A stretch of DNA of 45,872 nucleotides, taken from a virus. Positions 10,882 to 37,500 of the stretch are shown piece after piece; the stretch's first letter is position 1; each line of letters starts with the position of its first letter. The notes beneath the pieces were generated by a model. The model did no database searches and had not been told where the DNA came from. It was given only the letters and a program-made list of their open reading frames with translations. The position numbers and the translations under genes were made by a program. The stretch covers positions 1 through 45,872 of IMG/VR virus record IMGVR_UViG_3300009184_001846; one strand, written 5' to 3'.

Positions 10882-11463
10882 TTATTGATAGATGTGATGA
10901 TTCTTTTCGCCGTAAATCTTCATATATTTACCAGCTAACATGTCAGCCATCGCTTCTATAGGCGATCCGGGATAAGAATCCCCAGGCTGAATCATACCCA
11001 ATTCGCCCTGACGGCAATGTACGATTTCGTGGAAGACGGTGCGAAGGATATCTACTAGATTACGATTTGCTGCGTAGACCCAAATAGTTGGATCACCCAT
11101 AGTGTGACGACCAGTGTGATGATTGTCTTGTGCTTCCTTAGTATCGTAGCTTAGATCAATCTTAATTGGGTTTTCTAGATGAACACGGCGCATTGCCCAT
11201 TCAGCAAACTTCTCGACTTCAGCCTTAATATCTAATTCGCTGCTGTCAACCTCTTCTTCCTTAACATCCTTGATCCAACTATCGGGAGTCTTCTTATACT
11301 TTCTAAGAAAAAGATCGTGTAGAGCCTTACCAGTAATATGATTCTTCTTGGCAATCTTACGCATCAACTTGTCAATGGAGTTGTAGTCATGCTTAGCCAA
11401 ACTGGGTAGTTCTTTGGCTAATTCCATAACGGCTGATTCGGCAAGTAGTTCGGTTGCTCTCAT
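10882..11463 (-). CDS. HExxH metalloprotease-like protein with capsid-targeting N-terminus
   Basis: A 193-residue protein with HEIVH at 145-149 and a downstream Glu (SPIEAMAD, E170), the zinc-binding set of gluzincin-type peptidases. The preceding strand (TIWVYAAN) supports a protease-like core. The N-terminus MRATELLAE-S matches the T4 internal-protein/Alt leader, which the prohead protease cuts after (L/I)xE. It may therefore be packaged and injected as an early protease. No Shine-Dalgarno sequence precedes the ATG, and a GATAAATA element ends 5 bases upstream. Zinc-site call is solid; packaging and substrate are inferred. Confidence 0.75.
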   Translation of the reverse strand: MRATELLAESAVMELAKELPSLAKHDYNSIDKLMRKIAKKNHITGKALHDLFLRKYKKTPDSWIKDVKEEEVDSSELDIKAEVEKFAEWAMRRVHLENPIKIDLSYDTKEAQDNHHTGRHTMGDPTIWVYAANRNLVDILRTVFHEIVHCRQGELGMIQPGDSYPGSPIEAMADMLAGKYMKIYGEKNHHIYQ

Positions 11464-11468
11464 TCAAG

Positions 11469-11476
11469 TATTTATC
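11469..11476 (-). promoter_or_regulatory. Late promoter core GATAAATA close to the start codon
   Basis: Matches the T4-type late core, 5 bases before the ATG of the metalloprotease-like gene and overlapping the upstream stop. If used, transcription would begin at or next to the ATG, giving a leaderless mRNA. Confidence 0.4.
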
Positions 11477-12119
11477 TTAACTTTTTTAGAAACTCAGAAG
11501 TCTTACTAGTTTTAATTCCAGTAATCTGAAATGTGACTCTAGGATGATGTCCGGCATTAGCAGTACAGTGCGGGATATTGGCCCAATCAAAAGAAGTCAC
11601 ATCGCCCGCTGACCAGTATTTCATATTATAGTTGCCGTACTCCCAAAATTGTCCGGGTTGCCAATCAGTGAGTTGGACAAGGATTCGCATAACTTTACTA
11701 GGATCTTCTGGATTCCACTTTTGTAGCTTGTCGATATGTCGGGTCCATACCTGTCCAGGCCATTGAACATGGATACGTTCCATACAATCATCCAAACCAA
11801 ACTGCTCAGTAATCTTGTGTAGACTTTCGGGTATGTCCCAGTTCAGATGCGTGATAATCATCTTTGGATCAGCCCCTGTCCGTTCAATGTCATACTCTTC
11901 GGCTATCAAGTCTTCTCTTGGGCCCGGTATTCCTTCACCCTTATATCCACGAGTTTCCCAAGTAGCCGGTCTACTGTTTTCAATGATAGCAGCAAGATCA
12001 TTTTCCCAAGTATTATCTATCCTACCGTGATGTTTGAGAACATCCCAAGAGAAGTCTGTTTTCTTTGGATCAAAATGATACGTACTGTTCGCTACAGTAT
12101 CGTTCCAGCTACTTTTCAT
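11472..12119 (-). CDS. 2-oxoglutarate/Fe(II) oxygenase-like protein
   Basis: A 215-residue double-stranded beta-helix-type protein. The iron-binding triad can be read as H128-x-D130 (TRHIDK) and H184 (IPHCTANAG), with R194 (HHPRVTFQITG) as the 2-oxoglutarate anchor. Bracketing strands (MRILVQLTDW, PGQFWEYGN, AGDVTSFDW) fit the aspartyl/asparaginyl-hydroxylase-like group common in cyanophages and pelagiphages. The stop overlaps the late-promoter-like site, and the start overlaps the next P-loop gene by 4 bases. The substrate is not known; a surface glycan, a nucleotide or a protein are all possible. Confidence 0.75.
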   Translation of the reverse strand: MKSSWNDTVANSTYHFDPKKTDFSWDVLKHHGRIDNTWENDLAAIIENSRPATWETRGYKGEGIPGPREDLIAEEYDIERTGADPKMIITHLNWDIPESLHKITEQFGLDDCMERIHVQWPGQVWTRHIDKLQKWNPEDPSKVMRILVQLTDWQPGQFWEYGNYNMKYWSAGDVTSFDWANIPHCTANAGHHPRVTFQITGIKTSKTSEFLKKLR

Positions 12120-17548: not shown

Positions 17549-18148
17549 TTAAAACTTCTGTGCAATCGCAATGCCGATAGCATCGATGTTTGCAGTACCA
17601 CGAGTGCGGTAATAGTTTGCAGTTACCGAAGTATTTTCACGAAATGCATACGAAAGACCTGCATTGAGACGATCAGTTTTTACACCAGATGCATTCTCGA
17701 AACCCTCGCGGTGACGATAACCAGCTACAACCGAGACTGGACCATATACATGACGGCTAGCCTTTACACCAGCGCCCCAAAGTGTATAGTTTCCGCCAGT
17801 TACGACATTGCGGTTACCGACTCTAGTAGTTACCTTGTCAGCAAAAGCTTCACCAATCTCACCGTATGCAACAGTGTGGATTCCGAGAACTTCCGGAAGG
17901 ACGTAGCCTGCCTTCACTGATACTCTAGTCTTAGCAGAGCCGCCATCTTCTGGCTGACTCACCTGGACTTCAGCACCAGCTACTACATTAGTAGTTACAT
18001 CGGCCATGTACTCAAGCTTATATGATGTAGCGTCTGGACGACCTGAACGGACATCATTGAACTTCACTTCGCCTGTGATAGTGTCAGCCATTGCTGGGGT
18101 AGTTACAGCAGCCATTGCGAGTGCTGCGATTACAATTAACTTCTTCAT
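17549..18148 (-). CDS. Outer-membrane beta-barrel protein with signal peptide
   Basis: A 199-residue protein with a clear signal peptide (lysines, hydrophobic core, cut near PAMA-DT at residue 21-22). The mature part is a series of alternating amphipathic strands with aromatic girdles (YKLEYMAD, HTVAYGEIG, SVVAGYRHR, LNAGLSYAF, VTANYYRTR) and ends with AIAQKF, the terminal aromatic signature recognised by the BAM complex. About eight strands are expected, OmpA/OmpW size. A phage-made barrel could block adsorption of other phages or change envelope permeability. A strong terminator follows. Confidence 0.82.
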   Translation of the reverse strand: MKKLIVIAALAMAAVTTPAMADTITGEVKFNDVRSGRPDATSYKLEYMADVTTNVVAGAEVQVSQPEDGGSAKTRVSVKAGYVLPEVLGIHTVAYGEIGEAFADKVTTRVGNRNVVTGGNYTLWGAGVKASRHVYGPVSVVAGYRHREGFENASGVKTDRLNAGLSYAFRENTSVTANYYRTRGTANIDAIGIAIAQKF

Positions 18149-18178
18149 ACTTTTATGTTTCCTTTTAGGTTAAAAGTA

Positions 18179-18199
18179 CTGCACATTTTTGATATGCAG
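18179..18199 (-). terminator. Likely terminator of the curli-cyclase operon
   Basis: CTGCACAT (18179-18186) and ATATGCAG (18192-18199) pair with one G-T contact, and the minus strand continues TACTTTT. It lies between the cyclase gene and the barrel gene. Confidence 0.6.
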
Positions 18200-18250
18200 C
18201 TAATAATATTTAACTCTGTAAATGTGTGTGAATTTTTTTAACGGGCATAT

Positions 18251-20302
18251 TCATTTTGATGTTGCCCTAAATACTCCATCCCAATTTGCTGGGGGAGTGT
18301 TCTTGTATTCCTGGATGCGTTCTAACATCGCATCATAATACTTATTTAGCTCATTGTTCCAACATGTTTTCAAGTCATTAGCAAATCTTTCAGCCACATC
18401 CCAGTTACCCTTACGATATAACTCTAAGAACTTGTTATGCTGTTGTTCAGCCGATGCGTCACTAAATGGTAAAACTGTGTATATTCTAGCAGGCTCGGTC
18501 TTGCCCTTAACTGCTATCAAGTCTAATTCTACTACTTGGTACGTGTCCAAAACCGCGCTAGCAGTCTTGGGTCCAATGATAATTTTAACGCCATAAGGTT
18601 TGCTTTGGCCCTCGAGACGAGATGCAAGGTTAACGCCGTCCCCCAAACAAGTATAGTCGAAACGCTGATCACTACCCATATTACCGACAACAACAGTATC
18701 AGTATTAATACCGAGACCCATTCCAAAAGCTGGTACACCTTCTTCTTTAATTTCTTCATTGAATTTTTCCAATGCCTTCATCATTTCAAACGCAGTCTTA
18801 ACTGCATCTTTGGCGTGTTGATCGTTGTTGACTGGTGCATTCCAGAACGCCATCTGAGCATCGCCGATATATTTATCTAGCGTTCCGTTGTTCTCTAGAA
18901 TTGCTTTCGTCATAGTTGTCATATAACGGTTCATGATCTTTGTCAAGCCCTGAACATCTTTACCGTAGTGTTCTGAGATAGAAGTGAATCCACGAACATC
19001 AGTGAACATGATACTAAGTTCTACTTCGTCACCGCCTAGAGACAATAGTTCTGGGTTTCTCTGAAGTTTTGCAACAAGGTCTGGGCTTAAATAAGTGCCA
19101 AACTGCTTTTTAATTTGTTGCTTTTGTAGATATTCACTGATAAACTTAACACTATATACATGCATATAAATAAGAAGTGCAGCAAGAATGTTGAATGAAA
19201 TATCAAATAATATCTTGCTATGACTGAACAAATATATAGGTGCATACATATATCCCGCGATCAATAAACCGATCCATACGATAGAGTAACGCACGTTAGA
19301 CAGACCGATGACAGCAAGGGAAAGAACAACAAATGCTAAAAGATCAACAAGACCTACCCAGTTCGGAATCGACACTGCATCACCGTTTAGCAGAGTTTGA
19401 AGAACACTCGCTTGCAACTGATGGGGATACTGGGCACCTGAGGGAGTCGCTACAGGGTTACTTAGACCACTGGCGGTTACACCAAGAATTACAATTTTCC
19501 CAGTTAGATCAGGAACCTTCTCACCAACCTCAAATGACTGAAACTTATAATTTGGGTTGATAAATACTCTACCGTATTCATCGGTATCTATTTTTCCGAA
19601 TTGAGGAACACGCAATGCTTCAACCCCAGTTAGACTTATTTTCGCTTGATACGACGGATCACCCGCAGCAACACGCAACACTTCAAGAGCAAATGCAGGA
19701 TAGTATTCGTTCTTTGAAGTCCCTATTAGAGGGATTCGACGCACTACCCCGTCAGTCTCTGGAAGCGAAGTTGTTATACCGACGCCTGCAGCACCTTCTT
19801 GAAGCATTGAAATATTATCAAGAACACACGGATAATTCGGGAGAAACTCAGTCGGTTGCCCGTCTCCAATTACAGCAACGCCTGTACGACGAGTCTGAAC
19901 GTTATTCCTAGTACAAGTGTCAGATAGAGTCTGACTTAGTACAACTGGATATTGTTTTAAGGTATCTGATAGTACTCTGTCAGTCCCCATCCGATCAGGC
20001 TCAGACATAAGTATAGTAATGCCAACGATACCAGCGTTTGCCCCATAAAGATCCCTAATAATTTTGCTATATGTTTCCCTTGGAAACGGATACTGTCCAT
20101 ATTTTTCAATTGCCTTCTCCCCGATATTTGCAACTACAATTTGCTCTGACTTAACCGACTCACCCAACATCAAATAGTCATAGTACTTTAACTTCATACT
20201 ATCAACTAGGAACGGATTCATCAACTTTATTGATAGCAATAGCACTACTGTAGCTACAGCTAACCACGGTGATAATAAAATTTTACTCGCTTTGTTTAAC
20301 AT
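18251..20302 (-). CDS. CHASE2-domain transmembrane class III adenylate cyclase
   Basis: A 683-residue protein. An N-terminal membrane anchor (11-30) is followed by a periplasmic CHASE2 sensor (about 31-310), three more membrane helices (about 315-380), a short linker (FGTYLSPDLV) and a class III cyclase domain (425-610). The catalytic set is complete: metal ligands D435 (FTDVRGF) and D481 (IGDAQM), purine-binding K477 and D549, and N558 and R562 in GVNLASR. It should make cAMP. The start overlaps the FecR gene by 20 bases, making it the last gene of the curli-type operon. CHASE2 cyclases with FecR neighbours are known in bacterial chromosomes; finding one in a phage is unusual. Confidence 0.93.
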   Translation of the reverse strand: MLNKASKILLSPWLAVATVVLLLSIKLMNPFLVDSMKLKYYDYLMLGESVKSEQIVVANIGEKAIEKYGQYPFPRETYSKIIRDLYGANAGIVGITILMSEPDRMGTDRVLSDTLKQYPVVLSQTLSDTCTRNNVQTRRTGVAVIGDGQPTEFLPNYPCVLDNISMLQEGAAGVGITTSLPETDGVVRRIPLIGTSKNEYYPAFALEVLRVAAGDPSYQAKISLTGVEALRVPQFGKIDTDEYGRVFINPNYKFQSFEVGEKVPDLTGKIVILGVTASGLSNPVATPSGAQYPHQLQASVLQTLLNGDAVSIPNWVGLVDLLAFVVLSLAVIGLSNVRYSIVWIGLLIAGYMYAPIYLFSHSKILFDISFNILAALLIYMHVYSVKFISEYLQKQQIKKQFGTYLSPDLVAKLQRNPELLSLGGDEVELSIMFTDVRGFTSISEHYGKDVQGLTKIMNRYMTTMTKAILENNGTLDKYIGDAQMAFWNAPVNNDQHAKDAVKTAFEMMKALEKFNEEIKEEGVPAFGMGLGINTDTVVVGNMGSDQRFDYTCLGDGVNLASRLEGQSKPYGVKIIIGPKTASAVLDTYQVVELDLIAVKGKTEPARIYTVLPFSDASAEQQHNKFLELYRKGNWDVAERFANDLKTCWNNELNKYYDAMLERIQEYKNTPPANWDGVFRATSK

Positions 20303-21368
20303 TGATGATAGTTCCTCCGGCCGGTTCGTTTATTTCAATTAGAAATGATTTTCCATTACTGTCAATGAATAGTGTTTTATTTGAATCCTTCTTCACAACA
20401 ATGTCAACTGTTGTACTGAGTGTTCTGGCAAGTCGTAAATAGTCCCCTGACATGATAGTAGTAATCTGTGTAGTATTATTAAGACCAAATGTAGTTCCGC
20501 AAAGTTTCGTATTGTCTTTTGTCACACAGTCATTCCCATCAGCGGAATCAAGAAAATCTTCCGCTAAGAAGTCTGAGTTAATCGTATTGATGTCAAGTTC
20601 TGAACTGGCTAGCTGATTTTCCTGTAGATCATCTTTTGCGAGGTAATCGATATCAAGTTCTGACAAATCTAATATGTTAGCTTTAGCTTCAGCCATTTCT
20701 TCTGACTTAACTTCTTCCGCAGGAGATACAATTAACATATTGTCAATCTGATCAAGGGTTAGATTTAGAATAACAGGCTTAGATGGGCTACTATCTGCGG
20801 TAGAAACTATAGTAGCTTGAAATGCTTTATTAAGAATGACCACACCAGCAGCATTTGATACTGTGATTTCTCCGACTGAGCCGTCTGGTTCTGGAAGCAA
20901 CATTATGAGACTCTTTCCGAAATCATCTACTGTTGCTGCAAAGTCTGTACCTCTAACAGCTATAGTTGCTGTGGGTGTTCTAAGATTGATGTTACCTTTG
21001 TTCATCTTACCGGACTGTCCTGTCGCAAATCTAACAGTTCCGGATGCAAACTTGAGAGCCATTCTTGAAGTGGATGGCTTGCCACTGTATACGAAATCGT
21101 CAATCACGAGTTTAGAGTGTTCAGTAACTTTGACAGTGGAGTCATCTACGAAAGTTACTTCAACTCTACCATTACCAGTCTGCACCTTGTCCATTTTATC
21201 TATAGGTAATTGAGGTCGTACAGGCAGCTTTGTGACTTTCCGTACGACCTCGCTTACGCCTCGATTTTGCGTAACCTTACCTATATTAGCATGGGCCTCC
21301 GGCGTTGCACTGATTAATAGTAATAGTACTGCCGCTGCTCGTGCTATCGATCTTAAGTGTATCGACAT
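20283..21368 (-). CDS. FecR-domain periplasmic protein
   Basis: A 361-residue protein with a signal peptide (arginines, AAAVLLLLI core, cut near AHA at about 27), then a FecR domain (about 55-165: VEVTFVDDSTVKVTEHSKL, ALKFASGTVRF, LRTPTATIAVRGTDF), and an acidic C-terminal region of about 200 residues. FecR domains sense or bind periplasmic signals and often pair with CHASE2 cyclases. The start at 21368 overlaps the curlin gene by 83 bases; a later start would remove the signal peptide, so the long overlap is probably real. The next gene is the cyclase, 20-base overlap. Confidence 0.85.
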   Translation of the reverse strand: MSIHLRSIARAAAVLLLLISATPEAHANIGKVTQNRGVSEVVRKVTKLPVRPQLPIDKMDKVQTGNGRVEVTFVDDSTVKVTEHSKLVIDDFVYSGKPSTSRMALKFASGTVRFATGQSGKMNKGNINLRTPTATIAVRGTDFAATVDDFGKSLIMLLPEPDGSVGEITVSNAAGVVILNKAFQATIVSTADSSPSKPVILNLTLDQIDNMLIVSPAEEVKSEEMAEAKANILDLSELDIDYLAKDDLQENQLASSELDINTINSDFLAEDFLDSADGNDCVTKDNTKLCGTTFGLNNTTQITTIMSGDYLRLARTLSTTVDIVVKKDSNKTLFIDSNGKSFLIEINEPAGGTIINVKQSE

Positions 21369-22787: not shown

Positions 22788-23221
22788 TTAAATCCGCTAG
22801 TAGGAACTATGATTTCTGTTTGATTGCCGTTGTCATCAATGATTATTAGTTTAATCTCAGTGTCAGTTTTCTCATACTTAATCACATTACCCTCAAGAGT
22901 AAATTCCCCAGAGTCTCCGGCTGTTTGTCCGAATAGATTGTTAGTTAACTGCTGAGCCAACTGTGAGTATATACGAGATTGTAGATTGTTCAAAAAGCGA
23001 TTTAGAATAGAGTTCTTTTCTTCAAGAGCTTTTGCTTTGAGTTCAGCTTCTATCTTATCCTGTATGGCTTTCTTGCGTAGAGTCTCTTGGTTTTCAATCG
23101 TTAGCCATTGCGCTCCGGCGTTATTGCCAGAGAACGATGGATTTTTAAATTGATATACTATCTCGGTTGCTTGCACAGGGCTGCATACAAGTAGCAATAA
23201 TACTGAAACTCTTTTCAGCAT
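22781..23221 (-). CDS. csgF: CsgF-type curli assembly factor
   Basis: A 146-residue secreted protein (signal peptide to about residue 18). The mature N-terminus TEIVYQFKNPSFSGN...GAQWL is the part of CsgF that inserts into the CsgG pore. A coiled middle (KIEAELKAKALEEKN) and the C-terminal beta region (IKLIIIDDNGNQTEI) also match CsgF. It sits at the neck of the CsgG channel and couples export to surface attachment. It starts 4 bases after the upstream small membrane gene. Confidence 0.9.
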   Translation of the reverse strand: MLKRVSVLLLLVCSPVQATEIVYQFKNPSFSGNNAGAQWLTIENQETLRKKAIQDKIEAELKAKALEEKNSILNRFLNNLQSRIYSQLAQQLTNNLFGQTAGDSGEFTLEGNVIKYEKTDTEIKLIIIDDNGNQTEIIVPTSGFKW

Positions 23222-23225
23222 AGCC

Positions 23226-23907: not shown

Positions 23908-24240
23908 TTAGTAGATGCTGCGGGGAGCAGGGGAGCGGTTGAAACCCTGAATTACAGAGATGAAATCATCTTTGCTCTTAGCAGCAACGCTCTGCATTTC
24001 TTCACGATCCATCGGCTTCAGGTCACTGTACTTATGCATGAATGCAAGGATGACGTTCATAGGAATGTTGAACTTCTTACCATCCTTGAAAGTGATAGGA
24101 TAGTTACCACCAACGTCAACAGCCTTCTTCAACTGCATCAGAATGTGAGGGATTTTATCCTGATCAGGATCACCGACGATTTCATCTTCATCGTCCCAAT
24201 CGTCGTGCTTAGATTCGTTGAGTACTTCTGCAATTTTCAT
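23908..24240 (-). CDS. Conserved phage protein with capsid-targeting-like N-terminus
   Basis: A 110-residue protein that begins MKIAEVLNE-S, matching the (L/I)xE capsid-targeting leader, followed by a very acidic stretch (DDWDDEDE) and a helical body (ILMQLKKAVDV, NVILAFMHKYSDL). It is preceded by an early-type promoter (24284-24312), a late core (24258-24265) and AAGGAACGC. A terminator follows. No enzyme motif seen. Probably a small internal virion protein. Confidence 0.65.
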   Translation of the reverse strand: MKIAEVLNESKHDDWDDEDEIVGDPDQDKIPHILMQLKKAVDVGGNYPITFKDGKKFNIPMNVILAFMHKYSDLKPMDREEMQSVAAKSKDDFISVIQGFNRSPAPRSIY

Positions 24241-24532: not shown

Positions 24533-25638
24533 GCCTTTTTTACAGAAAAAAGCGGTCCCGACACATAATTTTCACGAGATTGGTTCATCATCCCGTCTTG
24601 TAACTCTTTGATTATATTGGGGGTAAGATGTCTAGCTCTCCACCCGTTTTTGAGCAGCAAATGAACTTCTACAGGATCGTCACCTTCTAGCTTTTGTACA
24701 GCTATCATACGATTGCGACCCTCATGGCCTGTGATCTTAGCAGGTCGTGTGAAGTCATCCTGCTCCCAATCGGAGGGGATATCTATATCTAGAAACGGGG
24801 CACCTAATGCTCCGCCCTGTTGAAGATAATTTACAATGTAATCTACGCTGCGCGGTTCTTTCAGCGGCAATGCTAACTTCAAGAATGTGCTAGGCTTCAT
24901 CATAACACGTAAACCCATGTAATCAACATTTTGATTATATGGAACTGATCCTAAACCTTCTACATTATCTACTTTATATTCTGATAATCTGTCCGGTAAT
25001 GTGTAAAATATGTGATTTCCAATAGTCGCTGCACGATCAAGTTTGGTCCTCCAGACTGGCTTAACACTAGTGGTATGATAATAAACTGCACCGTTAGTAG
25101 GATCAGGTGCGGTGCCAGCTACGATCTTTTTTGCAATATCTTTAGCTTCAAGCCAGGCTTTATAATCCATATAATCGCCGGTATCTTTAAACTTAGCGAA
25201 CCATTCATCAAATGGAGTACCATCTGGAGATTGTTTAAGTCTGATCAATTTATCATACTGCAATATTTCACTAAGACGATCTCTATTCGGATCCCCTTCG
25301 TTCCAGCAACTGAATTGTTTTGGTTTAAGAGCTACTCCGCGAATGCCGGAACCAAACATTTTTGCGTGTTCGACATCTTCTGCACGATTATTGATGACAT
25401 TCCCTACAGCTAACATTCCAGTAGGACCGTGACTACGAGCTTCACCCCAGATAGTCTGTGCTAATACTCTTACGTCAGGATTTTCAACAGTAGCAGCTAC
25501 AGGTGGCTTAACAGAAGCCTTGGGCGGCGCCATATGATTTGCACCCACGACTAAAGCACCAGCAGCACCTAGAGCACCGACAGTTTTCTTCCAGTCTTCT
25601 TCTAATTCTTGTTCGGTGATGAATTCAGAAAGTCTCAT
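24529..25638 (-). CDS. SleB-type cell-wall hydrolase with capsid-targeting-like leader
   Basis: A 369-residue protein in three parts. Residues 1-9, MRLSEFITE, match the capsid-targeting leader. A hydrophobic segment follows (TVGALGAAGALVVGA). Residues about 52-215 form a SleB/CwlJ hydrolase domain: IWGEARSHG with the catalytic Glu66, NVINNRA, and a C-terminal NGAVYYHTTSVKPVW. Residues about 235-369 form a second domain with GHEGRNRMIAV, resembling the GxHRxxA turn of ParB/sulfiredoxin-like folds. It could be a virion enzyme that opens peptidoglycan during entry rather than the lysis endolysin. Overlaps the 25635 gene by 4 bases. Confidence 0.85.
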   Translation of the reverse strand: MRLSEFITEQELEEDWKKTVGALGAAGALVVGANHMAPPKASVKPPVAATVENPDVRVLAQTIWGEARSHGPTGMLAVGNVINNRAEDVEHAKMFGSGIRGVALKPKQFSCWNEGDPNRDRLSEILQYDKLIRLKQSPDGTPFDEWFAKFKDTGDYMDYKAWLEAKDIAKKIVAGTAPDPTNGAVYYHTTSVKPVWRTKLDRAATIGNHIFYTLPDRLSEYKVDNVEGLGSVPYNQNVDYMGLRVMMKPSTFLKLALPLKEPRSVDYIVNYLQQGGALGAPFLDIDIPSDWEQDDFTRPAKITGHEGRNRMIAVQKLEGDDPVEVHLLLKNGWRARHLTPNIIKELQDGMMNQSRENYVSGPLFSVKKA

Positions 25639-26957
25639 CTTTTAGTTGTCCCTGCATTCCAATAACTGCTGCCTGGTGCTTTTCTAACGTAAATTTTATC
25701 TTTGATGAAATCTGCCATTCCGCCATCTGTGCTGTATTTACGAGAAGGAAATTCATCACGTACTCTGGATGCTATTACATCATTTACATAATCAAGAGTC
25801 AATGCGTCTTCACCGTCAAATTCACCGTTTTGAGTTGCTTCTTCAACATACTCTTTAAGTTCAGTTGCAGTAGGTCTTATTGCACCTCTGATATCTTTAA
25901 CGAATCGTCTTGCTTCATCATTATATTCAAGGTAACCTCCATCACTTTTTTCTACTTGTTCCCGGTCAATCTCGCCATTTTCGTCGGCATAGTTGTCTAA
26001 TAGATAATTTTGATATCCGTCATCATCGCTTTCCCATCCAGAAACTATTTCCCACATCTTGTCTTCGGCAATCTCAGCTATCTGTTCAATAAGAGGTTCA
26101 AGGACATCATCTGGTGTAAACAAAATCCAATTTTTAATTTCAGGTTCGTTCTTTAAGAAGAATTGTGTTAGTTCAGGAAATCTTTTAATTATGTGTCTAA
26201 ATGAAACTGGATCATCATTCTCATCCATAAATGAATTGGATTGGAAGTGTAGCTGATATTTCTCACCTTCATACTTTGGCTTCTTTGGAATAAGAATATA
26301 GAGTTTACCCTGACGATTGTACTGATCAAAGTAGTTCTGTCCCCTCGTAGCAGCAGTACACCAACGAGTGCCACGACCATATCTACATGAAGCAGCTTCA
26401 TCGTGCGGGACAATAACTTGAACATTTCCGTCTTCGTAAACCTTAGATGCACTACCCTGCTCTTGTTCTTTACCCTGTTCAACGTCATCTAGGTTGTTGT
26501 ATTCGTTCTCCATAGTATCTTCAAAGTCTTGATAAAACTTGAAACGATTTATATCAGCATGTTCGGGCTTGATCATTCTACGCTTCTTAGCAAGGTCGTA
26601 CAATCGTATCATGTCATTTCGGTTAATATCTTCTATACGCAAGCCGCCACCTGCTTTTGCGTACATTTTGGCTAACCAAGATGTATAAGCTTTATTTGGA
26701 GTAGGGTCTTTAGTTTCAATTGCACTGAGAATAAGATTAATCATAGCAGCACGTTTTTCAGGGGTTATCGATCCTGCTATTCTTTCAGGAGATACTCTAG
26801 ATAGTGTACGCAATTTGTTACTAAGTTCTCCTAAATTAGGAACCAACTGAGCTATCTCGGCGCTTGTATCTTTTGAGAAAGCCGAAATGATACGGTCACC
26901 GACTTGTTGAGCGGTTAGTTGCCTGTTATATTCAAGAAGGAACTCAATGGCTCGCAT
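25635..26957 (-). CDS. Capsid-targeted-type protein with C-x-WC domain, copy 1
   Basis: A 440-residue protein that begins MRAIEFLLE-Y, matching the capsid-targeting leader. The middle has a domain with SCRYGRGTRWCTAA, QNYFDQYNRQGKLYILIPKK and YQLHFQSNSFMDE, a strand-rich fold. The downstream gene has the same order of elements, so the pair arose by duplication. The C-terminal about 150 residues are acidic and helical. I do not recognise an enzymatic function. The ribosome-site region lies in a small hairpin (AGAGG at 26961, CCTCT at 26970). Probably an internal virion protein. Confidence 0.7.
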   Translation of the reverse strand: MRAIEFLLEYNRQLTAQQVGDRIISAFSKDTSAEIAQLVPNLGELSNKLRTLSRVSPERIAGSITPEKRAAMINLILSAIETKDPTPNKAYTSWLAKMYAKAGGGLRIEDINRNDMIRLYDLAKKRRMIKPEHADINRFKFYQDFEDTMENEYNNLDDVEQGKEQEQGSASKVYEDGNVQVIVPHDEAASCRYGRGTRWCTAATRGQNYFDQYNRQGKLYILIPKKPKYEGEKYQLHFQSNSFMDENDDPVSFRHIIKRFPELTQFFLKNEPEIKNWILFTPDDVLEPLIEQIAEIAEDKMWEIVSGWESDDDGYQNYLLDNYADENGEIDREQVEKSDGGYLEYNDEARRFVKDIRGAIRPTATELKEYVEEATQNGEFDGEDALTLDYVNDVIASRVRDEFPSRKYSTDGGMADFIKDKIYVRKAPGSSYWNAGTTKR

Positions 26958-26965: not shown

Positions 26966-27961
26966 TTATCCTCTATCGCGGCCGAATAGATGATTCATAT
27001 CTTCTTGACTAGCAGTGTTTTCCGGAGTAGAGTTATATGCAGTTGGATAAAGTCTCTTGATTCTTGAAACTTCATCAGGGATATTCCAACCACCACGAGC
27101 GATATGCATATCGGCAGATGCTCTCTTTAATTCTTCTGAATGATCTGTTAATTTTTCTGCAATTTCTTTCATCAATCCAGGGAATAATTCAGTAAACTGT
27201 TCTTCACCTGCGTTATAATCTTGCGTAGCATTCTTTAATTGTCGAGTTCCAGTGTGCATCTGCCACTTGCCGTTTTTATTATTCATGTTCTTTTTATCAA
27301 TAATACTAACGATAGGACCATCCGCTGAATAACGAGAGAACCAACTTGCACCGGTGCTGCTTCCCGTGCAGAATTGACCTTGCGTGCCTTCTGCATTATT
27401 GAATGTATAGCAAGAGCCATAGTTCAAAGGAACGATAACATAATATCTGTCATTGTCAATAAGAACAACTTGCTTTGAATCCTTCTTCATTGCAGCGAGC
27501 TTTTCGGCGTCAGCAATCTTTCTTAGTGCATCACGGTACTTGTCTTTACGCACTACTTTTTGAAGTTGAGTGATTGAAGAAAAACGATTAAAGTCTTGGT
27601 CAATTGGATCAAGTAAGCCTCGAACGCTCAATGCTTTCCAAGAACCTAATGCGTCCCCGGCTTCACCGTTGATATCTTCATAATCAGCAGCATGATTCAT
27701 ATATAGTTTTGTCAACCAAGCGTCAAACTTACCTTCTCTTGATAAGTCACCGTAGTTAGTATGTGAAAGAGTTTGATCAATTAAGTCACTCCATAGTTGT
27801 ACTACATCTTCATCTTTTGGTTTAGGGCCTAATTTTGCAAGTGCAGGAGCAGGAAAGGTATGATCATGCTTGACAGCCAAAGCAATTAATTTTGCTGCTC
27901 TAGGATCCTTAAGAATCTTTTCTGCGGCGTTAGCTTCTACTATTCTTGTTGAGTGTTTCAT
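26966..27961 (-). CDS. Capsid-targeted-type protein with C-x-FC domain, copy 2
   Basis: A 331-residue protein beginning MKHSTRIVE-A, a capsid-targeting-like leader. Its central domain (YGSCYTFNN, GQFCTGSSTGASWFSRYSADG, then KWQMHTGTRQLK) repeats the element order of the 25635 protein: a Cys in a loop, an FC or WC pair, a W/Y-rich helix, a GPIVSII strand and a Q-x-H strand. The N-terminal about 150 residues are helical with no motif. A good ribosome site (AAGAAGGG) precedes it. Function unknown. Confidence 0.7.
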   Translation of the reverse strand: MKHSTRIVEANAAEKILKDPRAAKLIALAVKHDHTFPAPALAKLGPKPKDEDVVQLWSDLIDQTLSHTNYGDLSREGKFDAWLTKLYMNHAADYEDINGEAGDALGSWKALSVRGLLDPIDQDFNRFSSITQLQKVVRKDKYRDALRKIADAEKLAAMKKDSKQVVLIDNDRYYVIVPLNYGSCYTFNNAEGTQGQFCTGSSTGASWFSRYSADGPIVSIIDKKNMNNKNGKWQMHTGTRQLKNATQDYNAGEEQFTELFPGLMKEIAEKLTDHSEELKRASADMHIARGGWNIPDEVSRIKRLYPTAYNSTPENTASQEDMNHLFGRDRG

Positions 27962-27972: not shown

Positions 27973-28992
27973 TTATGCGTGTAATAATGTTTGTTTTAGA
28001 TAATTCATGAGAGTTACCAATTTTTTATTATCGCCGTTTGCGATATCAGAGATTACTTTTCTTGGTCCCACATGATTTTGTGGTCCACCTGAACTACGAT
28101 AGCCGCTCGTAGACATAGTGAAGGTACCAGTGTCATCTGGGTAGAAGTGACTTGCAGTCATATACAATGCAGGTCGTAACTTAGTTTTGATATGATCAGG
28201 AATTGTTTTTGGATTGTCCATCAATTCCTCTTGCATGTTTTTTAATTTTTCTAATAGTTGTAGCTTCTGTTTTGCTTTATGATATGAATCATTCTTGATT
28301 GCCATACCAATAACACCTTTAACATCTGCTATCGCTTGTTGAATATATCTATTATATAGAGGGAGCAACTTAATCATAACCGCGTCAAAGTTTTGATTAT
28401 AGCCTGCATTCGGGTCTAATGAGTTTGGGTTCGTGATCGTTCTTGCGTCTTTACGTTCTTTGCGTTTTACGTCCACCGGTCCTATTGCATTATTAGATAC
28501 CCCGCGATACGATGATCTACCGGAGTTAACAGCAGACCAATAGCCTCTGACTTTACCGATAGTTTCTTTTATTTGTTTAAACAAAGTATTAATACTACCG
28601 TCACTGAATCTTTCTACGCCCTCTTTACTAGATAGCACAATTACCCACTGAGAACCATTCCACTTGACTGCACCAGTACCGTCTTGCCCTTGAATGAGTA
28701 CATAGTTAGGTGATCTGCTTTTAATATCTGCCCAGGTTATTTTTTGTTCTTCTTGCCATTGAAGATCATGTGGCATAGCTAATTCTTTGTGTACAAACTG
28801 GACGAGTGCATCAGAATATGGACTTCTACGAACGGCTGAATTGATAGTTGAATCTTCGTCAAGAATTTCTTCAAGTAGACTAGTCATAGTGCTGTGAAGT
28901 GCTAAACGAGCAGGATCATTCGCAGCAACTCTATGTGTCACTCTCGGCTTGAGGATTTTAATGTTTTCTTTAAATAGCTCTGTGCTTCTCAT
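27973..28992 (-). CDS. Unknown protein with capsid-targeting-like leader
   Basis: A 339-residue protein starting MRSTELFKE-N, close to the leader of T4 Alt (ending TELFDE) and therefore a candidate packaged protein. It has a helical N-terminal half, a GYWSAVNSGRSS region rich in small residues, a long helical segment (QKLQLLEKLKNMQEELM) and a Gly/Ser-rich end (STSGYRSSGGPQNH). No catalytic motif is visible. The Alt-like leader does not imply ADP-ribosyltransferase activity; I see no ART motif. AAGGG lies 8 bases before the ATG. Confidence 0.65.
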   Translation of the reverse strand: MRSTELFKENIKILKPRVTHRVAANDPARLALHSTMTSLLEEILDEDSTINSAVRRSPYSDALVQFVHKELAMPHDLQWQEEQKITWADIKSRSPNYVLIQGQDGTGAVKWNGSQWVIVLSSKEGVERFSDGSINTLFKQIKETIGKVRGYWSAVNSGRSSYRGVSNNAIGPVDVKRKERKDARTITNPNSLDPNAGYNQNFDAVMIKLLPLYNRYIQQAIADVKGVIGMAIKNDSYHKAKQKLQLLEKLKNMQEELMDNPKTIPDHIKTKLRPALYMTASHFYPDDTGTFTMSTSGYRSSGGPQNHVGPRKVISDIANGDNKKLVTLMNYLKQTLLHA

Positions 28993-30274: not shown

Positions 30275-32017
30275 CTAACGACTGAGGCCCTTCATGATAG
30301 CACTTTCTTTTGGTACACAGTTGGGGACAGACTTTCCGCCCTTCTTTTTCATCCCAACTTGCTTGTGACTATCCCAGCACTTTTCATCAAGCTGTTCTTC
30401 TTTTACTGTTCCGGCCATCTTTGGCTTGAACTTGCGATATGATTGTCCAGCGTTACCGCCTTGACCCATGCCGCCGCCGTATGAGGTATCTTCTTCGATC
30501 TCACCAGCTGGCTTTGCTCTGTATATGCGACGACCGCCTTCTCCGCTAGCACCAGTAGGATTATCAGTTGGTGTCTCGTTTAACAGTTTATTCCAAAAAC
30601 GATTAATGCTTTCAGCTAATGCAGGGTAATCATTTCCGTACATTGCTTTAGTGTCTTTTGACAATTCTTGTTTAATTCTCTGTAACACTGCCTCTTCGTT
30701 CCCTCGCATTTGGCTAAGAAACTTTAAAGTAAGAATCGGATCTAATGGAACAGGTGAGTCATTGCGAATATAATGGAATAGTCTCGGTGCTACTCTTTTT
30801 AATTTTGCATAAGCGTCATCATATTCTGGTGTGATGAATCCACCTGTTTGATTTGTGCTTGTCTTTGTATCACTTATCTCACTGATAGCACCTCTGAACT
30901 GGCGATCCTTTAGACCACCGTATGGATTAATCTTTGCAGTCTTTTCTGCTGCATACATTCCGGTATAGTCTTCTTGCACTTCATCCGGGCTGATCTTAGC
31001 ATGTTGATATGCTTTTGCTTTAGCAGTATCAGTGAGTCTCCAATACTTTACATGATAACCATCTGATGACTTCCAACCAATCTGTTCTCCTGTCTTAGGA
31101 TCATTGTATGGCTTAACATATTGTTTGGCTTTCGCTTCTGACATGAAATCTTCGTCATCCTGCTCATAGCGTTGACGTTCTAGTGCTTCCTTGAATACTT
31201 CATCAAGCCCGTAGACTGCTGACTCTAGTGCATTGATTGCTGCATATACTTCATTCTCAGCGTCTTGTAATTCTTTTTCCGGAATGCCGGCCTTCTCAGC
31301 AAGCATCTGAATTTCAACAACGATCTCTGAAGCAGTCTGATCATACTTGATCTGCTTAGTGATTTGTCTTGCTTTTCTGTAGGCTTCGTCCATCGGCAAT
31401 TTGGTATCGCCGGGTGAAGTGTACGTTGCTTCATTCTTTGGCTTCTTGCCTGCTTTCTTCATGGCGATAGCAATAGCGGCTTGTTGTGCTGGGCTACCAG
31501 CTTCGTCAACAATGCCCTTCATGATAGAGCTTTCGTCTTTTTTGCCGCCTGTTCCCCAGTTACTTGCGCCCTTCTTACGGCATTGAACTAACGCACCTGA
31601 TGCATATGCAGAAGGCCATACTTTGTAACGTGACTTAACTTTGTGATAGCAAGCATCTTGCTTTTCATTCATCATTGATTCGTGAACAATAGGTCCGCGG
31701 CACTTTGGACATTCATTGAATGGTACGCCCTCATTAGTATTCTTTTTAGTAGCCACGTTCTTTGCCTTTCCTGTACGTTCTGGGTTTGGATCTTCTCTGC
31801 GCTTCTTTGAAGCTGCATACTTACGACCCTTCTTACCTAAGTTCTGTGCTTTCTTTTGTGGGAGGCATTTAGGCTTACCTTCGCTGTCATCACCTCTTGC
31901 ACAAGCTCCACGAATCTTGCCATCAGGACCAAAACGAACCCACTTCTCTTTGAACCACTTGTGAAGGTTCTCATCAAGTTCAGTTTCGTCAACTATGCCC
32001 TTCATGATGCTGCTCAT
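30275..32017 (-). CDS. Modular basic protein with repeated SIMKG motif
   Basis: A 580-residue protein. A short motif occurs three times: SSIMKGIVDE at 2-11, again near 165, and SAIMKGLSR at the end. Two small basic modules follow the first: IRGACARGDDSEGKPKCLP with a Lys/Arg tail, and a CPKC...C-H cluster with KVWPSAYASGALVQCRKKGASNW, both of a type shared by phage and giant-virus proteins (DUF5872-like). A SPAQQAAIAIAMKKAGKKP segment occurs in marine phages. The remainder is acidic, low in motifs. It is likely a DNA- or core-associated virion protein. The repeats could be processing or assembly signals. Confidence 0.65.
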   Translation of the reverse strand: MSSIMKGIVDETELDENLHKWFKEKWVRFGPDGKIRGACARGDDSEGKPKCLPQKKAQNLGKKGRKYAASKKRREDPNPERTGKAKNVATKKNTNEGVPFNECPKCRGPIVHESMMNEKQDACYHKVKSRYKVWPSAYASGALVQCRKKGASNWGTGGKKDESSIMKGIVDEAGSPAQQAAIAIAMKKAGKKPKNEATYTSPGDTKLPMDEAYRKARQITKQIKYDQTASEIVVEIQMLAEKAGIPEKELQDAENEVYAAINALESAVYGLDEVFKEALERQRYEQDDEDFMSEAKAKQYVKPYNDPKTGEQIGWKSSDGYHVKYWRLTDTAKAKAYQHAKISPDEVQEDYTGMYAAEKTAKINPYGGLKDRQFRGAISEISDTKTSTNQTGGFITPEYDDAYAKLKRVAPRLFHYIRNDSPVPLDPILTLKFLSQMRGNEEAVLQRIKQELSKDTKAMYGNDYPALAESINRFWNKLLNETPTDNPTGASGEGGRRIYRAKPAGEIEEDTSYGGGMGQGGNAGQSYRKFKPKMAGTVKEEQLDEKCWDSHKQVGMKKKGGKSVPNCVPKESAIMKGLSR

Positions 32018-32022: not shown

Positions 32023-32826
32023 CTAGCCTTTTTTGTTCTTATTGTCTAACATTCCGCGCTTATTAGCAGTTGCCCAGGCAATGTCAGATGCTTTGTCCTT
32101 AGACTTGCCTAGGTCACGCTCTGACTTTTCAATGTGCTTGACCATGCGGTCAACTTTAGCACCTTCAGCGGCGATACCACCAGCAATAACACCACCGGTC
32201 ATTTCTTGAACTTGCTTACCTTCAAGATACTGACGAACTGAGTTTAGATAGTCTGCTGCTTTAGTGATCTTAGCTTGTACCCAGCCTTCAAGACCTTCAT
32301 CTTCAGTAACGTCTTTGATCAACTTATGAATCTTGCTTGAATTCTTGTGAGCTTGATACAAATCACCTCGAGCCATCTCAACTTCATGGTCACGACGATC
32401 TTCAGCATGTGGAATAAAACCACCCTTTCTGTGTCCTTGACCAGGAACAATGATTAGGTCGTCTTCGTCTAACTTTGCTTCTCTGACTTCCTGCTTGAGT
32501 TCAAGTTTCTTATTAGGAAGCTTTTTCTTAAGAATCTCCAACTCTTTCTTTGCTTTAGTGATATCAGTATAATTTACAGCAGGCTTATTGTCTACATAAA
32601 GAACAGTTACGTTTTCCCCTTTATACTCTCCTGCCGCCTCATTCATCTTCTTGCTATTAGCAAATGGCTTTGAAGTCTTCTTGCCTGTAAACATACTATC
32701 TTTTGGTTCTTTTCCATACACGCCTTTTCCTACAGAAGAACGTTTTAGTGGTCCGCCGGTCATTGGGGCTGCTACAGTAGCAATTGAGCCTGCTGTTGTT
32801 GATTCGCAAATATCTGTAATTTTCAT
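32023..32826 (-). CDS. Prohead-core-like protein with capsid-targeting leader
   Basis: A 267-residue protein. I chose the ATG at 32826: it gives MKITDICE-S, a leader like those of the neighbours, and has a late core 26 bases upstream; the in-frame ATG at 32883 would sit inside the terminator. The body is charged and helical. The C-terminal DRMVKHIEKSERDLGKS and DIAWATANKRGMLDNKNKK blocks recur in T4-like marine phage virion or scaffold proteins. A GWVQAKITKAADYL helix is also typical. Probably an internal head or core protein. Confidence 0.65.
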   Translation of the reverse strand: MKITDICESTTAGSIATVAAPMTGGPLKRSSVGKGVYGKEPKDSMFTGKKTSKPFANSKKMNEAAGEYKGENVTVLYVDNKPAVNYTDITKAKKELEILKKKLPNKKLELKQEVREAKLDEDDLIIVPGQGHRKGGFIPHAEDRRDHEVEMARGDLYQAHKNSSKIHKLIKDVTEDEGLEGWVQAKITKAADYLNSVRQYLEGKQVQEMTGGVIAGGIAAEGAKVDRMVKHIEKSERDLGKSKDKASDIAWATANKRGMLDNKNKKG

Positions 32827-32852
32827 GGTGGTAATCCGTTCCGTTGATAATG

Positions 32853-32860
32853 TATTTATC
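32853..32860 (-). promoter_or_regulatory. Late promoter core GATAAATA
   Basis: Matches NATAAATA, 26 bases before the ATG at 32826, and lies just downstream of a terminator for the upstream gene. Confidence 0.6.
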
Positions 32861-32870
32861 TTAGAAACAA

Positions 32871-32898
32871 AAAGAGGCCCCATTTCTGAGGCCTCTTT
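32871..32898 (-). terminator. Intrinsic terminator after the 32923 glycosyltransferase
   Basis: AAAGAGGCC (32871-32879) pairs fully with GGCCTCTTT (32890-32898), and the minus strand continues TTTTTGTTT. It separates the glycosyltransferase transcript from the 32023 gene, which has its own late core. Confidence 0.88.
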
Positions 32899-33903: not shown

Positions 33904-36900
33904 TTATTTTTCTTCTAAATAATCGCTGTTTTCGGTTAAACTACTTTGTTCTACATGATGTTCAACGCCCAAAACATCACCTAGCATATTCAAACTTGCT
34001 AGATATTTCTTCTGTGATGCTGCGGCTCTTTCGGCTGACCAATGCGACTTGTCTCCGGTATAGTTCATGTAATTGTCACTATACTTTACCATCATAGCAA
34101 GAAGGTTCTTACTATTGATGATCTTGCGGATGTTGTCAGCATAGGATAACGACTTATCTTTAGTGAGCAACTGTACTGCTTCGATGACCGCTGGACTGAA
34201 TCCTCGTTCAGCTAGGTCCTCGGGTTTGTATGGAGTATCCTCTAGTACATCATGTAATAGAGCTACTTTAACTGCTTCTGAATTGAATCTAGGACCAAAG
34301 AACTTTCTACCAATCGCAGCAACTTGTCTAGGATGTGATGAGTATGGCTTATCGCCGTACATCTGACCTTGCTCTGTGTCGTGCGCTCGTTGAATAAATC
34401 TCTTAGTTCCTGGAATATTGTATTCATCTAGTTGAGCTTTAGCTTCACTCAATAACTTAACGAACTTAGCCTTCTGTTCTATCGTGGCTTCACTGATGAG
34501 AGGCTTAATTCTCTGAATGAATTCTTTAATCTCTTTGTGCTTTATTCCTGCTGATGCAGTGTGCATTAGCTTTTTGATCCAAGCTGTGCCTAGCTTATCA
34601 GTATCGAATGCTTTAGACCATAACTTCAGTTTTGCTTCTTCACTAGCATTTGGATCCTTTAGGATGTCACGTAGCATAGTAAAGCTAATACCAGTACCGC
34701 CCTTACCTGCTTCACGTTCTGTTCTAACAGTTTCAAAGTCTACTTGATCTTGTGTGCCGCCGTACTTAGCAATTGCTGCAGGATCCTTCATTCTTCTTTC
34801 AAGAGAATCCATCCAATTCTTCATGCCATCATAACGATCACTGCCTACAAGTAGAATGATCTTATTATAAGGGCTATTCTCAGGAAGAACGAGTTCCTTC
34901 TCAATTTTCTTCATTGGAGTACCCTGTGCATTCCATAACTGAATGTTATTAGCGTATTCAGGATAGAGCTTACGTAGAGTCTGCAACTTCATCTCAGGTG
35001 GAATAGGATCGTCATTACCAACTACTGGGCTAACAAAGATATACGGATCACCGCCGACTTGCTTCGCAGTATCGATAGTTTGATTGATTAATTGTTCATG
35101 ACCCTTGTGACCAACAAAGCTACCTACAGTAACAACTGCTGGTTTAGAACGATTATTCTCAGTTGGCTTTCTGTTAGCTGCTTGCTTTACAGCCATCTTT
35201 TCTTTCATGTCAGTACTAGTTACTTTAGCGAGTAATCCACTAGGTAGATTAAGGACAAGTCCTTCGATCATATTACCTAATTGATCCTTACCTTCTAGTC
35301 TTGGACTATGAATAATAGCATCACTTAATTGTTTACGAGCATGAGATAGAATCTCTTTTGCTTTAGTCTTCTGTTCTGATTCACCGCGTGACTTTACAGC
35401 AGCTAGTAATGCATTTGCATTTCTAACAACAGGGTTGATGATAGAGCTTACATCTAGGTCACGTTGCTTTAATTGATTGTTGACGATCTTGATTTCTTTA
35501 GTGCTATCTCTTAGCAATTCTTGCTTGATCTTAGCAGCATCGGGTCTTGGTTCGCCTGTGCTAAAAGTCTTCACGCTGAATGGAACTAGGGTCATGATAG
35601 TCCCTAGCTTCTTTTGATCGTATGGAATATTTACGAACGTAATACCATCTTCTGATTGCTTACCCATCGGCATGAATAGCATTTCTGCTTGAACGATAGT
35701 ATCAGCAGGAAGGCGCTTGATAAAGTCAGATGATACGATAGTCTTTAGAGCTTCGTCATACTTCTTCGTGAACTCAAGTCGTTCAGGATCCTGCCCCATA
35801 ACGTTACCGAATTGCTCAAAGTCACCGTAATTCTCAGCATACTTAGGATCAGTAACCTTAGAAGTCATAAAGAAGGGCTTACCTTCTTTGTCTTTACCGA
35901 AGCGAATGCCAGCACCATCTACTTTGAGATTGATGGGAGCACCGTCAAGCTTCCCGTCCATACCCGCAATCTCTTGACACATACGAATGAAGTCAGCGTC
36001 TTTCATTTCAACGCTGCTACCAGGATTGTAGATGTGCGGAATACCCTTGCGCTTATAGTTAGGAGCATCTTCGTCTAGTGCATTCTTTGCCATGCCCTTG
36101 ACAATATCGCTTGACTTCTCATCTTCGTCATCAGCAGAAGTCATCTTATAACCAGCATAGTAATCTTTCATCATCTGATCAAGATTGGCTGGCTTAGGTA
36201 CCTTCAATACTTTAAGTAAGTGATTAATAGCAGTAGATTTCTCTGCTTTATCTTTGTCAGGATTGTTCTTATACATACCCTGAGCACCAGGGCCAATTAC
36301 TTTCAACAGGAACGCTTGTACAATTTGATTCTTTTCTTCTGGAGAAAGTAATTGGTTCATTATATCAAGCAAGCCAGAGAATGACCAAAAGTTCTTTGAT
36401 AGTTCTTGTGCCTTCTTAGGATCTAAACGCTTACCAAGAACAGTTTGAAAAATCTTTCCAATATCTTGAATGTAGCCTGATGTAGGTGCTGCTCTCATTA
36501 CTGGTTTGCCGTCTTTGATTTCTGGCTTACCAGTAGTAGCATCCATGACTGGTTCATACTTTGCTCTTAGACCGCCACCTTCTTTAGATGACACAGCAAA
36601 GCTGTACATGTTGTCTACAGTAGGTACATCTTCTTCCTGTCGTGCTTTACCACGACCTACCATTTTACGCAAGTAAAAATCTTTACGAGTCAATGCAGTG
36701 AATGCTTGAATCAATAGCTTATGGAATACGCCCTTCACGCCTGCTTGTAGATCATCCCAAGCTGAACTATGACTGAAACGTGCCCAGTCTGTTGGCTTTT
36801 CACCCTCAAATTCTACGAATTCAAAGTCAATCTGAATCTTGATAGGAGGATTTTGAAGCTCCCAGAGTGAACTGAACTGTTCGTTGCCACGCTGAAAGCC

Positions 36901-37299
36901 TCTCAAGACTGCAGGGCCCACTTGCTTATCTTCGTTCTGAGTTAGGAACTGACTTAGTTCAGCCTCTAACTCTTTATTAACCATCGTGTCCATATCGCCT
37001 ACTGTAGGCTTCTTGGATACGAATGTTTCATCAGGAATACCCTGCACATTAAAGAAGTGCAAGCTAGACCCACTCAGAAACTCCCCGCTCTTTAATAGCT
37101 CAGGGCTCCACAAAGGCTTTTTGAATTGTTTAGCAAATGCTGCATCGATAGATGCTAGCAGGTTGTTCAGAATAGGAACAATGTAGCCTCTATTAGTTAC
37201 TTTAAGATCAAGATGTTGTGCCTCATGACCACGGATAGCAAGGTTTCCGCCTTCTACTAAGCGTTTGCGGTTTTCTACTATGATCTGAGAAATCTTCAT
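33904..37299 (-). CDS. Four-domain nucleotidyltransferase/ligase/HIGH/HD protein with capsid leader
   Basis: An 1131-residue protein. Residues 1-9, MKISQIIVE, match the capsid-targeting leader. About 70-210: Pol-beta-type nucleotidyltransferase core (GSS 77-79, D102-x-D104, third Asp D158). About 445-695: a covalent-nucleotidyltransferase (DNA/RNA ligase-like) region with K459-V-D-G, E539 in AEMLF and IEGLVLNL...AKV as motifs IV and V. About 718-915: an NMNAT/cytidylyltransferase-like domain with GHKGH at 730-734 and ISFTMLR at 871-877. About 960-1105: an HD domain (H989, H1016-D1017, D1075), like the RelA/SpoT hydrolase domain. Several (L/I)xE sites lie in linkers (410, 937, 952, 959). Overall role unknown; an injected repair or nucleotide-signalling polyprotein is an inference. 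Confidence 0.75.
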   Translation of the reverse strand: MKISQIIVENRKRLVEGGNLAIRGHEAQHLDLKVTNRGYIVPILNNLLASIDAAFAKQFKKPLWSPELLKSGEFLSGSSLHFFNVQGIPDETFVSKKPTVGDMDTMVNKELEAELSQFLTQNEDKQVGPAVLRGFQRGNEQFSSLWELQNPPIKIQIDFEFVEFEGEKPTDWARFSHSSAWDDLQAGVKGVFHKLLIQAFTALTRKDFYLRKMVGRGKARQEEDVPTVDNMYSFAVSSKEGGGLRAKYEPVMDATTGKPEIKDGKPVMRAAPTSGYIQDIGKIFQTVLGKRLDPKKAQELSKNFWSFSGLLDIMNQLLSPEEKNQIVQAFLLKVIGPGAQGMYKNNPDKDKAEKSTAINHLLKVLKVPKPANLDQMMKDYYAGYKMTSADDEDEKSSDIVKGMAKNALDEDAPNYKRKGIPHIYNPGSSVEMKDADFIRMCQEIAGMDGKLDGAPINLKVDGAGIRFGKDKEGKPFFMTSKVTDPKYAENYGDFEQFGNVMGQDPERLEFTKKYDEALKTIVSSDFIKRLPADTIVQAEMLFMPMGKQSEDGITFVNIPYDQKKLGTIMTLVPFSVKTFSTGEPRPDAAKIKQELLRDSTKEIKIVNNQLKQRDLDVSSIINPVVRNANALLAAVKSRGESEQKTKAKEILSHARKQLSDAIIHSPRLEGKDQLGNMIEGLVLNLPSGLLAKVTSTDMKEKMAVKQAANRKPTENNRSKPAVVTVGSFVGHKGHEQLINQTIDTAKQVGGDPYIFVSPVVGNDDPIPPEMKLQTLRKLYPEYANNIQLWNAQGTPMKKIEKELVLPENSPYNKIILLVGSDRYDGMKNWMDSLERRMKDPAAIAKYGGTQDQVDFETVRTEREAGKGGTGISFTMLRDILKDPNASEEAKLKLWSKAFDTDKLGTAWIKKLMHTASAGIKHKEIKEFIQRIKPLISEATIEQKAKFVKLLSEAKAQLDEYNIPGTKRFIQRAHDTEQGQMYGDKPYSSHPRQVAAIGRKFFGPRFNSEAVKVALLHDVLEDTPYKPEDLAERGFSPAVIEAVQLLTKDKSLSYADNIRKIINSKNLLAMMVKYSDNYMNYTGDKSHWSAERAAASQKKYLASLNMLGDVLGVEHHVEQSSLTENSDYLEEK

Positions 37300-37314
37300 A
37301 TTAATAACTCGGTT

Positions 37315-37500
37315 TTACTTCGCTTCTTTACGTGCGTTCTTCTCTTCGGTAATTTCGTTACGACGAGACTTGCAAAGCTTTGCAAGTTCACCAAGTGCCT
37401 TACGGGCACGAGTACCAGCAGCAGCATTTCCATTGTTGAACTTTTCGTTTTCTGCGAGGAAAGCTTCGAATTGAGCCTTCATGTTGATTGTTGTTTCCAT
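37315..37500 (-). CDS. Small basic histone-like protein with LxE leader
   Basis: A 61-residue protein. The N-terminal part MKAQFEAFLAE-N is close to the T4 internal-protein leader MKTYQEFIAE, here after six extra residues. The rest (NAAAGTRARKALGELAKLCKSRR and a Lys/Glu tail) is helical and basic and resembles histone-H1-like proteins of large viruses. It probably binds DNA and is packaged in the head. AAAGGAAG precedes the ATG. Confidence 0.7.
   Translation of the reverse strand: METTINMKAQFEAFLAENEKFNNGNAAAGTRARKALGELAKLCKSRRNEITEEKNARKEAK

Follow-up and report, generated by a model that had tools for sequence, protein, structure and literature searches.

Why should a metallopeptidase-like protein, a putative cell-wall hydrolase and a 1131-residue multi-domain protein of one phage all begin with a short peptide ending in Glu? 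The question is raised by a 45,872-nucleotide stretch of viral DNA (IMG/VR virus record IMGVR_UViG_3300009184_001846, positions 1 to 45,872; hereafter the window), in which an earlier note had listed nine start peptides ending in or close to (L/I)xE and had likened them to the capsid-targeting sequence (CTS) of phage T4. In T4 the CTS directs its carriers to the core of the prohead and is then removed by gp21 after L/I-x-E; on its own it suffices to load foreign proteins (PMC9026906). We consider it very probable that the window's N-terminal peptides are T4-type capsid-targeting propeptides, cut after the Glu, and that their cargo is kept in the head and injected. This reading is based on leader statistics, conservation, co-occurrence with gp21 and matching putative capsid cut sites, together with late-promoter-like sites and the detection of one homolog in virions by mass spectrometry (MS). 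At the sequence level, the presence of a T4-type leader on unrelated proteins is well supported, although the histone-like protein named as one of its carriers has to be dropped.

The minus strand encodes all nine listed peptides, and their leader coordinates were read back exactly (Table 1). The coordinates quoted in the earlier note, kept here as gene names, refer to the lower-numbered (3′) end of each open reading frame (ORF), and two of the peptides, MKITDICE and MKAQFEAFLAE, begin downstream of the first ATG of their frame. Occurrences of a strict leader form, M[KR]xxx[FLIVM][LIVF]xE at N-termini, were compared with an expectation from within-protein shuffles. The window contains five strict leaders against 0.09 expected (P<0.001), while none of its 41 internal M[KR] sites fits the form. 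The count of five is conservative because gene 23908, with a sixth leader, is masked by a longer ORF on the opposite strand (24034-24459) and was left out of the automatic gene set. T4 ipII and ipIII were recovered with the same motif as positive controls. The leader is genuine: it is clustered and far more frequent than expected by chance.

A chance near-match occurs at the start of the window's DNA polymerase (MSYIDAILE), which most relatives do not keep; conservation across relatives was therefore taken as the deciding test. The leaders of 10882, 23908, 24529, 25635, 26966, 32023 and 33904 proved to be conserved, and that of 27973 is kept in the related contigs G001 and G002. In contrast, 37315 was rejected as a carrier because its motif lies inside an Hc1 domain (the match to Pfam PF07432 spans residues 1-55) and is lacking in the homolog of the related contig G020. 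A ninth carrier, 30275, had been overlooked; its relatives begin MSNILKGIVNE, MSNILTGILNE and MSSILRGILQE. Eight of the nine listed peptides thus hold, and the window total is still nine. Their leaders are 8 to 16 residues long, where the criterion for a T4-type CTS is about 10-19, and seven of the nine end strictly in L/I-x-E (LAE, LNE, ITE, LLE, IVE, ICE and LVE).

Conservation is concentrated at the predicted cut, at E9, the hydrophobic residues 6 and 7, and S/A/T at position 10. Among 15 distinct N-termini of 10882 homologs, E9 is kept in 14, S/A/T at position 10 in 14, F/I/L at position 6 in all 15 and L/I/V at position 7 in 14, while positions 2-4 drift. In the 25635 family, M1 and E9 are invariant in a 10-sequence alignment that reaches down to 18-19% identity and includes the 26966 paralogs. 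The 26966 leader has the counterparts MRRLIKTRLTE↓AN, MKQLSRTKLSE↓AN and MKLRRKITE↓AN in relatives (the arrow marks the predicted cut). Homologs of 23908 in G001 and G020 read MKINELLNE↓S. For 33904 the better-conserved cut point is Glu16 (RLVE↓GGN) rather than Glu9. Most homologs read have LxE↓GGN, including that of Campylobacter phage CP220 (MKLSELMFILE↓GGN), and the homolog in Vibrio phage Va1 begins M↓GGN, without a leader. T4 nrdC.11, considered as another leaderless homolog, shows no similarity.

The leader is not confined to the window. The cultured phages nearest to its DNA polymerase are jumbo members of the T4 superfamily, for example Phosso and Atu_ph07, and IMG/VR contigs of up to 333 kb are much nearer than these. 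Strict leaders exceed expectation in G001 (6 vs 0.14), G005 (5 vs 0.18) and G021 (4 vs 0.26) and, among relatives of 333-353 kb, in G020 (9 vs 0.49), G029 (7 vs 0.44) and G030 (9 vs 0.46), with zero or one internal M[KR] match per genome in the window and in these six. In the near contigs the leader tightens to MRAxEFITE, and a degenerate DNA pattern for this peptide finds at least 120 IMG/VR stretches, against one for a permuted control. We read 87 ORFs behind it, from 80 loci; in 78 of them an in-frame stop precedes any upstream ATG. Their mature parts fall into 12 BLAST clusters, including GNAT acetyltransferases, a protease and small basic proteins; in many of the carriers, which are small, no enzyme domain is recognised. 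Cargo in the relatives further includes kinase-like paralogs, assigned by eye and with no Pfam hit. The C-terminal domain of 24529 stands alone behind MRAHEFLTE and MRATEFITE in G001 and G021, and such domain swaps identify the leader as a module. As judged from these comparisons, it is modular and lineage-wide and, in all sequence features open to testing, agrees with capsid targeting of the T4 type. The commonest MRAxEFITE carrier, from IMG/VR loci L264-L343, is a protein of 118-139 residues, often encoded in tandem pairs and ending in SPV/IxxFKGYxK; it has no cultured-phage homolog in INPHARED.

Several observations link the leader to head assembly. A gp21-family protease (PF03420) is encoded by all eight leader-carrying contigs of at least 150 kb and by 9 of 17 contigs overall, the shorter fragments mostly lacking it, as expected for pieces. 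The relatives G014, G015 and G020 have both a gp21 (S77) prohead protease and a gp23 capsid protein, from which we infer that this phage has them too. In G020 the order is T4-like (portal, small core protein, acidic core protein, gp21, gp22, gp23), and beyond gp23, after one ORF, lie three paralogous leader carriers that begin MRINELLNE↓S, MRITEIITE↓S and MRINEIINE↓S. The putative cut sites of the capsid proteins of relatives, taken from alignment, read LLAE↓S, YLAE↓S, YLKE↓N and ILFE↓T and share the pattern LxE↓S/T/N with the leaders. The RaK2 capsid protein is reported to run slightly below its predicted size, which would fit a cut (PMC3622015).

Late-promoter-like elements that may indicate late expression precede several carriers. 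The T4 late promoter is TATAAATA, which the element GATAAATA resembles. A sequence scan found GATAAATA before 10882, 23908 and 32023 and before no other window carrier, and an element of this type stands close before the ATG in most homologs of 10882. Met20 is the likely true start of 32023 because homologs begin there and GATAAATA lies upstream of it. A sigma-70 promoter scan of the region was at chance level.

Virion data come from cultured phages. In PA5oct (Arenbergviridae), the homolog of 25635, EST35_0205, is a virion protein by electrospray ionization tandem MS, and EST35_0150, encoded between portal and gp21 and likewise detected by MS, begins MKINDIITE↓GYYN. For Atu_ph07, the virion proteome is published as the gene clusters CDS 31-76, 170-215 and 284-329, the last of which is the syntenic ClpA/DnaJ region (PMC6102473).

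A number of points weigh against capsid targeting. In PA5oct the association between leader-like N-termini and detection by MS is weak (6 of 93 detected proteins vs 6 of 318 others, P=0.03, for a loose form) and is not significant for a stricter form (2/93 vs 2/318, P=0.22); the loose LxE ending does not discriminate (18/93 vs 47/318). Although they have gp21, three cultured relatives (RaK2, Atu_ph07 and Phosso) show no excess of strict leaders in the same shuffle test. Neither gp21 nor gp23 was found in the window or in its nearest contigs, G001 and G002, all of which are fragments. The Glu of the 27973 leader is lost in one relative, G020 (MRATELKKG), P3 is V or F rather than L/I in two window leaders (IVDE and LFKE), and the leaders here end at Glu9 where those of T4 end at Glu10.

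Other explanations of the shared start have also to be considered. That a loose (L/I)xE motif was simply chosen by eye has a negligible chance of being right: the motif is short, and the DNA polymerase and the Hc1 protein do resemble it by chance, but the shuffle tests and the pattern count refute this for the set, leaving 37315 as the case to which it still applies. Scarcely more credible is conservation of the mRNA start region for translation initiation. The motif always sits at the start codon, often near a promoter-like element; however, nearly all leader positions of the MRAxEFITE ORFs show free variation among synonymous codons, so that selection is on the peptide. Within the metalloprotease family, both nucleotides and amino acids vary while residue classes persist. 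The leader might instead address its carriers to another site, such as the membrane or a replication compartment, its terminal Glu being no protease site. A short, amphipathic-looking peptide, predicted to be helical in the 10882 model, could serve in this way, but we regard the idea as very unlikely since the Glu and the following residue are among the most conserved positions and match the putative capsid cut sites, the start of the Va1 homolog coincides with the predicted mature end, and gp21 co-occurs with the leader.

A further alternative accepts targeting to the prohead and makes the carriers core or scaffold components that act in assembly only, with no injected enzyme kit. The three carriers in the head cluster of G020, the position of PA5oct EST35_0150 at the place of T4 core-protein gene 67, and the many small carriers without a recognised enzyme domain all suit it. 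GNAT acetyltransferases, a SleB hydrolase, a RelA/SpoT-like HD hydrolase and a zincin-like protein would nevertheless be odd as scaffold, and the cargo varies between relatives, which leaves the proposal possible but rather doubtful.

If the leaders are capsid-targeting propeptides that deliver their cargo, we infer packaging, cleavage after the Glu and injection as follows. Late in infection, carriers with M-[KR]-A-x-[ED]-[FLI]-[ILV]-x-E would bind the core of the assembling prohead through the leader and be enclosed as the capsid forms. The gp21-type prohead protease would then cut the leader after the Glu, just as it would process the LxE↓S/T/N site of the major capsid protein; once trimmed, the carriers would remain in the head alongside the DNA and reach the next host upon infection. 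With the tag a module before unrelated domains, cargo could differ between relatives while the tag stays constant. We lean slightly toward a broader version, in which the nine-residue tag is the universal loading label of an uncultured jumbo lineage of the T4 superfamily and a fast-changing arsenal of injected effectors stands behind it, with acetyltransferases, a RelA/SpoT-like hydrolase, a cell-wall hydrolase and a zincin-like protease as predicted members. Were this so, the tag alone would allow the injected proteins throughout a phage lineage to be predicted from sequence, and a short rule would find the proteins of giant phages that enter the host, most of them without an assigned function. 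Such carriers would be plausible factors in first-minute takeover or counter-defence. Capsid targeting as known from T4, where it concerns a few small proteins, would be extended to 7-10 carriers per genome, enzymes among them, and there would be new tags with which to load phage heads with proteins.

The closest known system is the CTS of T4 IPI, IPII, IPIII and Alt, likewise a short N-terminal hydrophobic-x-Glu peptide on otherwise unrelated proteins, used together with a gp21-family protease and the gp23 capsid protein; MRAxEFITE resembles MKTYQEFIAE. Unlike T4, with its handful of carriers, the large contigs read here have 7-10 per genome, the start MRA is fixed, the cargo includes large multi-domain enzymes, and the genomes are jumbo ones of uncultured phages. 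T4 gene 61.1 (NC_000866 18966-19130) begins MKTFKEFIKED, very similar to the internal-protein leader MKTYQEFIAEA. The inner-body and ejection proteins of the jumbo phages phiKZ and SPN3US are comparable in that several head proteins are cut by a prohead protease, and in SPN3US the first 15 residues of gp53 and gp54 are identical although the rest of the two proteins has diverged (PMC5694885). However, those propeptides are mostly longer than 100 residues with an S/A-x-E consensus, and the protease here matches the T4 family model PF03420. P3 (L/I/V/F) and the length of the leaders do not fit a propeptide of their type. PA5oct shares a 25635 homolog and a core-position protein detected in virions, but it shows no clear genome-wide leader expansion, only six MS-detected proteins having leader-like starts. 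In Salicola phage SCTP-2 (L394), adjacent genes begin MKVKHITQYLFE↓S, VKITELFE↓S, MKIRHLYE↓N and MKVKHILFE↓N; these starts may make up a second set of leaders specific to a lineage.

Table 1. Leaders, carriers and late-promoter-like elements in the window
Feature	Position	Strand	Remarks
Leader MRATELLAE↓S of 193-residue metallopeptidase-like protein	11437..11463	-	Coding sequence (CDS) 10882-11463
10882 carrier, HExxH zincin-like, N-terminal helical part resembling helix-turn-helix	10882..11463	-	Invariant H145 E146 H149
Leader MKIAEVLNE↓S, 110-residue protein, no function assigned	24214..24240	-	CDS 23908-24240
Leader MRLSEFITE, SleB/Hydrolase_2 domain and C-terminal domain	25612..25638	-	CDS 24529-25638
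Leader MRAIEFLLE	26931..26957	-	CDS 25635-26957
Leader MKHSTRIVE↓AN, more divergent form, paralog of 25635	27935..27961	-	CDS 26966-27961
Leader MRSTELFKE↓N, no function assigned	28966..28992	-	CDS 27973-28992
Leader MSSIMKGIVDE↓T, absent from the earlier note's list	31985..32017	-	CDS 30275-32017
Leader MKITDICE↓STTAGSIATV	32803..32826	-	CDS 32023-32826, Met20 start of ORF 32023-32883
Propeptide MKISQIIVENRKRLVE↓GGN of 1131-residue protein	37252..37299	-	CDS 33904-37299
33904 carrier, phrog_19290 N-terminal domain, cytidylyltransferase-like part, C-terminal RelA/SpoT-type HD hydrolase	33904..37299	-	
MKAQFEAFLAE, rejected as leader	37450..37482	-	Met7 of 61-residue ORF 37315-37500
GATAAATA, T4-type late-promoter-like element	11469..11476	-	5 nucleotides before 10882 ATG
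GATAAATA	24258-24265		Upstream of 23908
GATAAATA, late-promoter-like	32853..32860	-	26 nucleotides before Met20 of 32023

The enzymatic roles of the carriers are predictions. The labels SleB hydrolase, zincin and HD hydrolase hold or are plausible, whereas the histone-like protein is no carrier. The SleB domain of 24529 is recognised by Pfam (PF07486, E 6e-19). An AlphaFold model of 10882 (pLDDT, the predicted local distance difference test, 83) is matched best in Foldseek by abylysin and Wss1, with probabilities of 0.97-0.98 but E of about 0.2, a weak match; Foldseek found nothing with 25635, and PDB sequence searches with the two families gave no significant match. In 30275 (580 residues), SSIMKGIVDE is repeated internally and ESAIMKGLSR stands at the end, giving possible extra protease sites. 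After the predicted cut, 32023 reads STTAGSIATVAAP, near the mature capsid-protein arm SATAGATTAGNIA (pattern E↓S..AG.TTAGNIA), and may mimic that arm; MS-detected EST35_0203 of PA5oct has a similar VEE↓TASAGASSAGGIASVAKP.

Other genes of the window include a curli-like cluster (17549-23812) with CsgG (PF03783, E 1.5e-48), CsgF (PF10614), a curlin-like repeat protein (assigned by eye, with no Pfam hit), a FecR-domain protein and a CHASE2-guanylate/adenylate cyclase; genes 18251-23812 are unmatched in the relatives compared. A conserved 508-residue protein without a Pfam hit is encoded at 4435-5961. Also present are an enzyme like inosine monophosphate dehydrogenase or guanosine monophosphate reductase (PF00478, 452-1519), a ferritin-like/Dps protein (PF00210, 28995-29438) and a ClpA-like ATPase with DnaJ (38745-41869, assigned by similarity).

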